From: a virus
DNA: 46,773 bases
IMG/VR virus record: IMGVR_UViG_3300030060_002220
Span: 1-46,773 of that record
Strand: one strand, 5' to 3'
Shown: piece by piece, positions 29,738-33,996 of the stretch
Numbering within the stretch: position 1 is the stretch's first letter
How the letters are laid out: every line of letters starts with the position of its first letter
Made by a program: the position numbers and the translations under genes
Notes under the pieces: generated by a model
Seen by the model: only the letters and a program-made list of their open reading frames with translations
Database searches by the model: none
Told to the model about the DNA's origin: nothing

Positions 29738-29895
29738 TTCTTTTTCTCCTTTAAATTCATAGCGTTATCTAAATCAATAAAGTGATGATACTTTTTTAAT
29801 ACAGTAATATCTTCTACATCAACTTTATACTTTTCTATATATTCAAGTATATGCCTACTATCTATTAAATCATCTACATTTGTTATATCAATCAT
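29734..29895 (-). CDS. Truncated paralogue of the 31948-32298 gene
   Basis: 53 residues from the ATG at 29895, chosen by alignment with its paralogue. The first 25 residues (DITNVDDLIDSRHILEYIEK) are nearly identical to that protein, after which the sequences diverge and this one stops. It looks like a partial duplication. Longer in-frame starts exist up to 29922. Confidence 0.5.
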   Translation of the reverse strand: MIDITNVDDLIDSRHILEYIEKYKVDVEDITVLKKYHHFIDLDNAMNLKEKKK

Positions 29896-30202
29896 CTTCA
29901 TTAACCTCGTTGCAATTTTCATCTAAGACTGCTTCCCTATCTGCCCATTTCCAATCGACCTCATATTCTTGGGTAGCTGAAAAAGTTTTTTCAGTACCAT
30001 CTTTATAATCAATATCTAATTCAGAGTGTTTAATTCGATAATCTTTTACTTTATCCCAATCAATACCTAACTCGTCTAAGTCAAATTCTATTGTTTGATG
30101 ATAGGTTGCTTGTATGTATTTTGGTTTCATCTTTGTTCTCCTACCCATTATGCTATCAGTTATTAAGTCTGCTTGTGCCTTAATATCTTTATCGTCTATC
30201 AT
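29888..30202 (-). CDS. Hypothetical acidic early-type protein
   Basis: 104 residues, Asp-rich, with FDLDELGIDWDKVKDYRI and a beta-rich YEVDWKWADREAV. The start overlaps the upstream stop (TAATG). The layout suggests a compact soluble protein; no family recognised. Confidence 0.55.
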   Translation of the reverse strand: MIDDKDIKAQADLITDSIMGRRTKMKPKYIQATYHQTIEFDLDELGIDWDKVKDYRIKHSELDIDYKDGTEKTFSATQEYEVDWKWADREAVLDENCNEVNEDD

Positions 30203-30393
30203 TATACACCTATGAATGAAAGGTAGTGCTTACCAAAGTTAAATACTCTGCCTCGCCCTGTAGCATAAGTGCCATACTTACTTTGCATACCTCTCTTATG
30301 ATATGCAACTCTAAATTTAAAACCTAGAATACTACAATGTGTGTATCTAGTATTGAGGTAATTATTACCACTAAAAGTTTTTATGCTAAACAT
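30202..30393 (-). CDS. Hypothetical basic aromatic protein
   Basis: 63 residues: MFSIKTFSGNNYLNTRYTH, FKFRVAYHKRGMQSKYGTYA, ending in FIGV. SD AAGGAGG before ATG. Its leader carries a GTTTAAAC palindrome and an H-type pseudoknot (30423-30460), so its translation may be regulated. Function unknown. Confidence 0.55.
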   Translation of the reverse strand: MFSIKTFSGNNYLNTRYTHCSILGFKFRVAYHKRGMQSKYGTYATGRGRVFNFGKHYLSFIGV

Positions 30394-30460: not shown

Positions 30461-30461
30461 G

Positions 30462-31487
30462 AAAATAAAAGGGAAACTTTTGATAAAAAATCTACTCATT
30501 CCCCTGTTAGCATTTGGTTTTTTATACAAAGTATAGGTTATAGTTTATAGTTATTAGTCAAATGTCATTACCAAAAAACACGACCTCCTAGAGCTACACT
30601 AACATTCTCGCCCCAAATTAAAAGTGTGATGAGGGAAAATACACAGTTGCAATCCACATATTTTCCCCAGACCAAGCGAGTTTACCCCTTCTCCACACTT
30701 GCCGTACAAGTGGCTGGACTTGAACCAGCGACCTCTCAGTCCTTAATTTTTGCTACGACTCACACATGTCGTAGGTTCTGATATTGTTTTGTTGGGTATC
30801 CCCTACCTTCAGTTCAATATAGGATGAAACAACTCTCTTATTCGCCAAGAGTCCTATATAGACTAGCTTATCTCTTACTCATCACAGATATTTCAATCAT
30901 TACCTCTATCCTTTCTCAACAGTATCTCTAATCACCCCCATCCCATAACATTCAATTTGACTTTCATATTCTGCTCAGTCTATGTCTTTCGACTCTTTAA
31001 GCTGTTGTTAGCTCTGTTATGTTGAGTTTACTTAGTTTTCATTACAAAAAGCGATATTGTAGTTATCATGTCAGCATCACCTAGTATTACCTTTGGCTCG
31101 TCTCCATGTGCCTAGTAGCTTAATTCAGCATCAAGACTATTACCTCTTGAGTTCATACTTGTCTAAAAGCAAGTTCGGTATCCTGTCCTCTACTTCAATT
31201 AACCCAATGTATTACTTCTCTGCCCCACAAACATTAACATATATCCTACTCTCTCTGCTATCTTATCCCTAAGACTACTCAAGTCCTCAGATATAAAGAT
31301 GTCTTTTCACCTATGTCTGTCTACACTTCATATAGTTTTATATTTTCAGAAACCATTCCTGATGGTATCAAAACATATCATTAAGTTAGTTTAAGAAACA
31401 AGAACCCTCTCGGTGAAAATGTGTTCTAAATCTTGCCTCAGTGGAGTTGCCTCTTTGTTTTATATCGTCAAACTCCCAAGCCGATAT
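30462..31487 (-). ncRNA. Candidate large structured noncoding RNA B (about 1.03 kb)
   Basis: About 1.2 kb without a plausible gene on either strand. A promoter at 31494-31522 predicts a start at 31487, exactly at the hairpin ATATCG...CGATAT (31462-31487). Further perfect stems: 30753-30774 (7 bp), 30696-30712 (6 bp), 30633-30667 (9 bp), 31352-31366 (5 bp). A tRNA-like T-arm, GCTGG-TTCAAGT-CCAGC on the minus strand, lies at 30713-30729 directly beside the 30696-30712 hairpin. A GGGAA...TTCCC hairpin (30471-30503) with TTTTATTTTC may end the RNA. The minus strand is purine-rich. Size and T-loop resemble GOLLD-type RNAs; membership is unproven. Confidence 0.65.
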
Positions 31488-31493
31488 TTAAGT

Positions 31494-31522
31494 ATTGTTT
31501 CATACTTTTTTAATCTTGTCAA
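31494..31522 (-). promoter_or_regulatory. Promoter of candidate RNA B
   Basis: Minus strand TTGACA (31517-31522), 17-nt spacer ending TGA, AACAAT (31494-31499): perfect -35, extended TGn, and a -10 with 4/6 matches. Confidence 0.65.
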
Positions 31523-31947: not shown

Positions 31948-32298
31948 TTAATATTTTTGATACCAATAATCTATGCCACGAAAATTAACACTATCATAAT
32001 AGTATTGTTGGTCACGGGCAAAAGCCTCTATGTCTATATAACATTCTAAAGCCTCATCTACTTGATTAACTTCACGAAAGTAATCCCACATATAATCTTC
32101 AAAATAACTATCTCTAATAAAAAACACTCCAAACTTTAAGTCCTCCAAGCCCTCAGTATAGTTATCACAATACTCCTCCACTATACTTTGTAATGCTTTT
32201 ACCTTTTCCTCAAAGTCTTTATCGTCTTTATACTTTTCTATATATTCAAGTATATCTCTACTATCTATTATATCATCTACATTTGTTATGTCAGTCAT
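31948..32298 (-). CDS. Conserved accessory protein with DSRDI...DSYFEDY architecture
   Basis: 116 residues, SD GGAG before ATG. An N-terminal DDIIDSRDILEYIEKY helix, a charged coil, then IRDSYFEDYMWDYF, and a C-terminal YYYDSVNFRGIDYWYQ. This order is familiar from a widespread phage/plasmid hypothetical family with an antirestriction-like flavour. That link is a memory-level resemblance; no activity is claimed. A truncated paralogue lies at 29734-29895. Confidence 0.6.
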   Translation of the reverse strand: MTDITNVDDIIDSRDILEYIEKYKDDKDFEEKVKALQSIVEEYCDNYTEGLEDLKFGVFFIRDSYFEDYMWDYFREVNQVDEALECYIDIEAFARDQQYYYDSVNFRGIDYWYQKY

Positions 32299-32308
32299 TT
32301 TCGTTCTC

Positions 32309-32494
32309 CTAAACCAAGCCTCTGTTTTTTGCTTGATGTAATTTAATTTCTTTTAATTTAGTTAATTCTTTTAATCTTCTTTTGTGATAAGGTAAATTTG
32401 GCTCACAATACAAAGCATTACCAATCCAATCTTTCGTTTTTTGAATTTCTAAAATTAAATTTACTAACTCTTTAATTCTACCTCTATCGTTCAT
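32309..32494 (-). CDS. Hypothetical basic helical protein
   Basis: 61 residues: helical MNDRGRIKELVNLILEIQKT and a Lys-rich C-terminal helix (YHKRRLKELTKLKEIKLHQA). AAGGAG lies 11-16 nt before ATG, preceded by a GTTTAAAC palindrome in the leader. Function unknown. Confidence 0.5.
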   Translation of the reverse strand: MNDRGRIKELVNLILEIQKTKDWIGNALYCEPNLPYHKRRLKELTKLKEIKLHQAKNRGLV

Positions 32495-33343: not shown

Positions 33344-33528
33344 TACCTTTGAGTAAATTTATTAACTTTTTTTTAAAAGTGTTTAAACAGTTTTAATATT
33401 ATAATATATTATAATATATATAATAATTATTATTATAATGTCTTACAATATTATTATAATAATAATAGGTTATATTAAAGACTTTTGCAAGTGTTTTTAA
33501 AATATTCTGTGTTTTTTTATTTTAGGTA

Positions 33529-33831
33529 TTGACAAATAAAAATTGTTTCTCTCAGGTTCTGTTTTGAGTTCTAAGAATAATTTATTAAATATCCATAGCC
33601 TAGCATTAAAAATCTTTTTTAAAATGTTCTGTAAAAGTCAAGTCTTTTTTAAAATTGTTGCTAAATTGTCACATAAAAAACTACTAATAAAAAAACTACC
33701 TATTATTTTTTATAACCTATTGACATATAAAAATTGTTTCTCTCGTTGTCTAATTTCAATTCTAAGACCTTTTTATTAATTATTGGTATCCATATACCAA
33801 AAACTTTTTTTAAAATGTTCTGTAAAAGTCA
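33529..33831. repeat. Two 112-bp imperfect direct repeats
   Basis: Copies at 33529-33640 and 33720-33831. Each starts TTGACA(A/T)ATAAAAATTG, and each ends with TTAAAATGTTCTGTAAAAGT then CAA, so its ends are inverted TTGAC/GTCAA. A degenerate third end (TTTTAAAATATTCTGT) lies near 33496-33511. Confidence 0.8.
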
Positions 33832-33914
33832 ATAAATTTTATTTAATTGTCACAAGATTGTCACATTTAAACTTATAATACATTATAAATATTATTTATA
33901 TTTCATAATATAAT

Positions 33915-33996
33915 AAATATTTATACTTAATTATAAATATAAATTATATCTTACAAACATAACAAATATTTATACTTAATTATAAATATAAATTAT
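33915..33996. repeat. Exact 33-bp AT-only-like direct repeats
   Basis: Identical copies at 33915-33947 and 33964-33996 (beginning AAATATTTATACTTAATT), starts 49 bp apart. Iteron-like; only one C per copy. Confidence 0.85.

Follow-up and report, generated by a model that had tools for sequence, protein, structure and literature searches.

A region of the phage genome IMGVR_UViG_3300030060_002220 encodes not a protein but a large folded RNA of about 870 nt, belonging to a family that is absent from the Rfam library and that is found in several otherwise different phages. Near its 3' end most members carry a tRNA-like fold whose two halves are joined in swapped order, and no function is known yet. 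The RNA gene occupies the minus strand at 31489..30620 of the window, that is, of the whole stretch of 46,773 nucleotides analysed here. That this is a structured phage RNA of a class not in Rfam, with a permuted tRNA fold, is held with high confidence.

Location and boundaries of the RNA gene

The window is a virus record with genes for a T7-like primase/helicase and DNA polymerase, ribonucleotide reductase, terminase and portal. The primase is 49% identical to that of pelagiphages HTVC103P/104P. The RNA region sits among small minus-strand genes, and its GC content is locally 0.38-0.44 against about 0.32 for the record. The features of the region, all on the minus strand, are the following.

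31494..31522 (-): sigma-70-type promoter TTGACA-N17-AACAAT with extended -10 (TG)
30620..31489 (-): core of the structured RNA, about 870 nt
31436..31489 (-): 5' pseudoknot domain, hairpin ATATCG..CGATAT whose loop GGAGTT pairs with AACTCC
31395..31439 (-): second 5' hairpin, GAGGCAAGA / TCTTGTTTC
30814..30862 (-): most conserved motif, junction hairpin ATATAGGA-[TCTTGGCGAATAAGAGAGTNGTNTCRTC]-CTATAT
30753..30774 (-): hairpin CTACGAC..GTCGTAG with compensatory changes
30672..30739 (-): circularly permuted tRNA-fold domain (anticodon-stem 3' strand, variable loop, T-arm, capped acceptor stem, D-arm, anticodon-stem 5' strand)
30632..30668 (-): 3' hairpin, GGGAAAATA..TATTTTCCC
30461..30619 (-): separate block between the RNA core and the next gene, not part of the conserved RNA

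The preliminary description of this region, made from the sequence alone, is confirmed in its observation, although some details needed correction. It had found no credible gene on either strand, and indeed no open reading frame of 60 aa or more lies between 30394 and 31589 on either strand. The promoter it had pointed out, with TG before the -10 element, is present at 31522-31494 and matches 10 of 12 positions, and the T-arm GCTGG-TTCAAGT-CCAGC and the adjoining hairpin CACTTG-TACGG-CAAGTG are present at 30729-30696. The purine richness of the minus strand (59%) is real, but neighbouring genes are purine-rich too, so that alone means little. The many perfect stems are not above chance when the single sequence is folded (MFE z = -0.11) and become significant only with homologues (see below). 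The region had been drawn at 30462-31487, whereas the RNA core is 31489..30620. The candidate terminator placed inside the block 30619-30461 is not supported, since a scan found no minus-strand terminator there, and the window copy has no clear terminator.

Among close relatives the RNA is a presence/absence module, the same promoter being followed by different sequences. The relative L084 has the RNA core at 95.7% identity but lacks 30619-30461. L082 goes from the promoter straight to 30621 and keeps the 160-nt block without the core, and L003 has 43 unrelated bases and then the same downstream gene. The RNA core is therefore a unit of gain or loss that begins beside the predicted transcription start. 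The block 30461-30619 may be a second small RNA or a leader element of the next gene.

These comparisons bear on the possibility that the whole region is a long regulatory leader (5' UTR) of the downstream gene 30393..30202. In the window and L084 this gene follows the RNA without a clear terminator and shares its promoter. However, L082 and L003 keep promoter and gene without the RNA, and the downstream genes differ in the more distant homologues L123, L125 and L126, with terminators in between in L123 and L125; this reading is considered unlikely.

Homologues in other phages

Diverged homologues lie in other phage types: L123 (~70%), L125, L127 (82% to L123), and a distant, shorter L126. A pattern from the tRNA-like part found L123, about 70% identical over the 3' 300 bases, and a pattern from its conserved hairpin then found L125, L127 and L126. 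A profile search of all collected loci confirmed exactly these members, and a covariance model of the junction hairpin, which is present in all six members, hit 6 of 31 whole records at E about 8e-17 or better and nothing else. When relatives of this phage were collected by primase or by the neighbouring 63-aa gene, the model found the motif in none of those searched except the window and L084. The genomic settings differ: L123 lies beside tail and head-tail connector genes, L125/L127 lie before structural genes (terminase, portal and major head genes in L125), and L126 lies between a RecE-like exonuclease gene and an endolysin gene, in a contig also carrying a PAPS-reductase-like gene.

Other searches gave no further members. 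Nucleotide searches of named phages with the RNAs of the window, L123, L125 and L126 returned no homologue at blastn sensitivity, only short tRNA matches or chance. An exact 32-mer around the T-arm found nothing. A 26-position pattern of the junction motif found nothing in bacterial genomes, and a 17-mer found four chance hits. The known family comprises only six members in IMG/VR, all from metagenomic contigs, and two of them are near copies of another, so that covariation rests on four distinct lineages.

Conserved structure

Covariation among homologues, whose absence had been named in advance as grounds for rejecting a structured RNA, was found. The alignment of the window, L084, L123 and L125 gives a consensus energy of -219.5 against -150.9 +/- 9.7 for 60 column shuffles (z = -7.1), although the large middle region (the middle third) aligns poorly. 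The loop of the 5' hairpin pairs with a downstream strand as GGAGTT/AACTCC, AAAGTT/AACTTT and TTGGTT/AACCAA in the window, L123 and L126, respectively, with 4 of 6 pairs in L125. The covariation score is 0.433 against 0.187 for shuffled alignments; 0 of 500 shuffles were as high, and slid controls fall to at most 0.167. An alternative pseudoknot, AAGTGTG/CACACTT plus CTCGC/GCGAG, is present in the window but broken in L084, which also lacks the second partner, and was rejected.

The second 5' hairpin has 9 bp, with 1 covarying pair, 2 pairs changed on one side and none broken. In the 3' domain 98.6% of cells pair and five pairs change on both sides; one pair of the hairpin CTACGAC..GTCGTAG occurs as C-G, U-A and A-U, and the 3' hairpin keeps 9 bp in the window, L084 and L123. 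A long-range helix closes the central region, with 9 bp in the window and L123 and 23 bp in L126, but this helix was matched between members by eye and is less certain. L123 and L125 end in strong intrinsic terminators, and L126 has a weaker candidate.

A circularly permuted tRNA fold

The T-arm noticed in the preliminary description is half of a complete, circularly permuted tRNA fold, which that description did not see. Read from 30739 to 30672, the domain is CTGAG-AGGTC-GCTGG-TTCAAGT-CCAGC-CACTTGT-ACG-GCAAGTG-TG-GAGA-AGGGGTAA-ACTC-G-CTTGG. This is a tRNA whose 3' half precedes its 5' half, joined by a tiny cap at the acceptor end, and the anticodon stem opens into the RNA body and is extended beyond 5 bp.

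A model built from 24 real phage tRNAs with the halves swapped finds the window copy at 55.7 bits (E 1.3e-19, next best 8.4 bits), L084 at 68.6 bits, the best of 765 kb including many tRNA arrays, and L123 at 46.6 bits. All four tRNA stems are present in swapped order in these three members. L125/L127 have a degenerate version at 20.5 bits and L126 lacks the domain. In the window, L084 and L123 all tRNA elbow residues are kept (U8, A14, G15, G18, G19, A21, C48, U54, U55, C56, A58) while T-stem pairs and the D-loop vary. Between the window and L084 two T-stem pairs change on both sides and one anticodon-stem pair goes from U-G to C-G. With the halves put back in normal order and an added anticodon loop, ARAGORN calls a tRNA; in the natural order it does not.

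Adjacent copies of one tRNA can also look permuted, as in the control locus L103 (61.8 bits), and a more general permuted-tRNA pattern gave 24 hits, mostly tandem tRNA arrays plus the L084 contig. This, together with the patchy presence of the RNA, could suggest a decayed tRNA array or functionless pseudogene debris in an intergenic gap. However, ARAGORN finds no tRNA at all in the window, the contig of L084 (L112), L123, L125 or L126, and the compensatory changes, the kept elbow residues and the conservation across unrelated phages make this reading very unlikely. Even less likely is a phage attachment site (attP) copied from a host tRNA 3' end. attP sites often copy a tRNA 3' end, and the L123 T-arm half matches phage tRNA-Ile genes over 29 nt, but both tRNA halves are present in swapped order with complementary ends and covarying stems.

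Relation to known RNAs and possible function

The earlier interpretation, a large ornate phage RNA that is either GOLLD/ROOL or a new class and possibly has tRNA-like parts, is supported in its new-class branch, by homologues in unrelated phages, covariation, a discrete promoter and terminator, and a real tRNA-fold domain. The other branch is not supported. The comparison with Rfam covariance models that had been proposed as a check returned no match to any family at the gathering cut-off, and none to GOLLD, ROOL, OLE, tmRNA or group I intron models even at E up to 10 with relaxed filters in the window, L125 and L126; group II introns were likewise not matched.

GOLLD is phage-encoded, richly folded and over 800 nt in many members, sometimes has tRNAs in its linker region and is often near tRNA islands (PMC12286853). 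The tRNAs linked to GOLLD are described simply as phage-encoded tRNAs, whereas here a permuted tRNA fold is built into the RNA through its anticodon stem. ROOL is a standalone phage RNA of similar style, with pseudoknots and no known function, for which no permuted tRNA domain was found described (PMC12286853). Size, phage location and tRNA association match these two RNAs, but there is no covariance-model match to either in the window, L125 and L126, and it is very unlikely that the RNA is a highly diverged GOLLD or ROOL.

Permuted (two-piece) tmRNA also has a tRNA-like domain with the 3' half first and an anticodon stem extended into the RNA body. The present domain differs in its full tRNA D-arm and its capped acceptor stem without CCA, and neither ARAGORN nor the Rfam tmRNA models give a hit. 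Circularly permuted tRNA genes of algae and archaea show the same swapped order of halves, but those mature into tRNAs, whereas here there is no anticodon loop and the stem continues into an RNA of about 0.9-1.1 kb. A search of the open-licence literature found no earlier description of such a domain.

The best explanation is a phage gene for a large, free-standing structured RNA. Sequence comparison shows the promoter directly before the conserved 5' end, the 5' hairpin-loop pseudoknot, the long-range closing helix, the strongly conserved junction hairpin, the permuted tRNA fold near the 3' end in the window, L084 and L123, and the intrinsic terminator in two members. What the RNA does is inferred only, and no expression data were at hand. 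In this view it would be made early in infection from its own promoter and would fold, probably compactly and perhaps as an oligomer, into an RNA particle in the manner of GOLLD and ROOL. The tRNA fold would serve as a rigid L-shaped building block and/or a handle for host factors that recognise the tRNA elbow (T-arm modifying enzymes, RNase P, ribosome). The tRNA domain would be optional equipment, with the conserved 5' pseudoknot and junction hairpin as the functional core. This particle-and-handle mechanism remains tentative; oligomerisation, RNA-only cage assembly, protein partners and the role of the tRNA fold were not assayed.

The permuted domain keeps the residues that hold a tRNA elbow together but has a short loop capping the acceptor stem, no CCA and no anticodon loop, so as encoded it cannot work as a translating tRNA. 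It might instead be a real precursor, in which RNase P and 3' processing open the cap and CCA is added, giving a two-piece, tmRNA-like or tRNA-like molecule that can be charged. The gene order is that of permuted tmRNA and permuted tRNA genes, and the anticodon stem runs into the RNA body as tmRNA helix P2 does. Against this, the cap is only 5-6 nt, no CCA is encoded, and the seventh acceptor pair is G-U in two members and mismatched in L123, in addition to the differences from tmRNA given above; this reading is unlikely. A related possibility, also unlikely but not excluded, is a processed two-piece machine in which the cap is cut during infection, giving a tRNA-like end that enters the host translation or tRNA-processing machinery, while the rest of the RNA carries a separate activity. 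That would be a new type of RNA machine, neither tmRNA nor GOLLD/ROOL.

Very few large structured non-coding RNAs are known and most have no function, and recent work shows that two phage ones form RNA-only cages. The RNA described here is another candidate class of that size, and its recognisable tRNA fold, built in by circular permutation, gives a concrete experimental handle on what it touches in the cell. Three members with the canonical permuted domain, two with a degenerate one and one without it also form a natural experiment on how a tRNA is turned into a structural module.

Other features of the window

The palindrome GTTTAAAC occurs 20 times in the window against 2.0 expected (the largest of 100 shuffles gave 7). 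Most sites lie between 30414 and 35061, clustered in the early region and close to several gene starts, and two copies (30414, 31569) flank the RNA cassette. An 86% identical 95-nt repeat at 29813-29907 and 32216-32310 covers the gene starts of two minus-strand open reading frames, and the gene order around it is shuffled in L003, L082 and L084. Tandem-like repeats (143 nt at 73%, 41 nt at 95%) occur at 33499-33832 and 33907-33996, in the intergenic region between divergent gene blocks. A minus-strand open reading frame at 31948-32298 has a weak ArdA (antirestriction) Pfam match, E 1.4e-4, below the curated cut-off.
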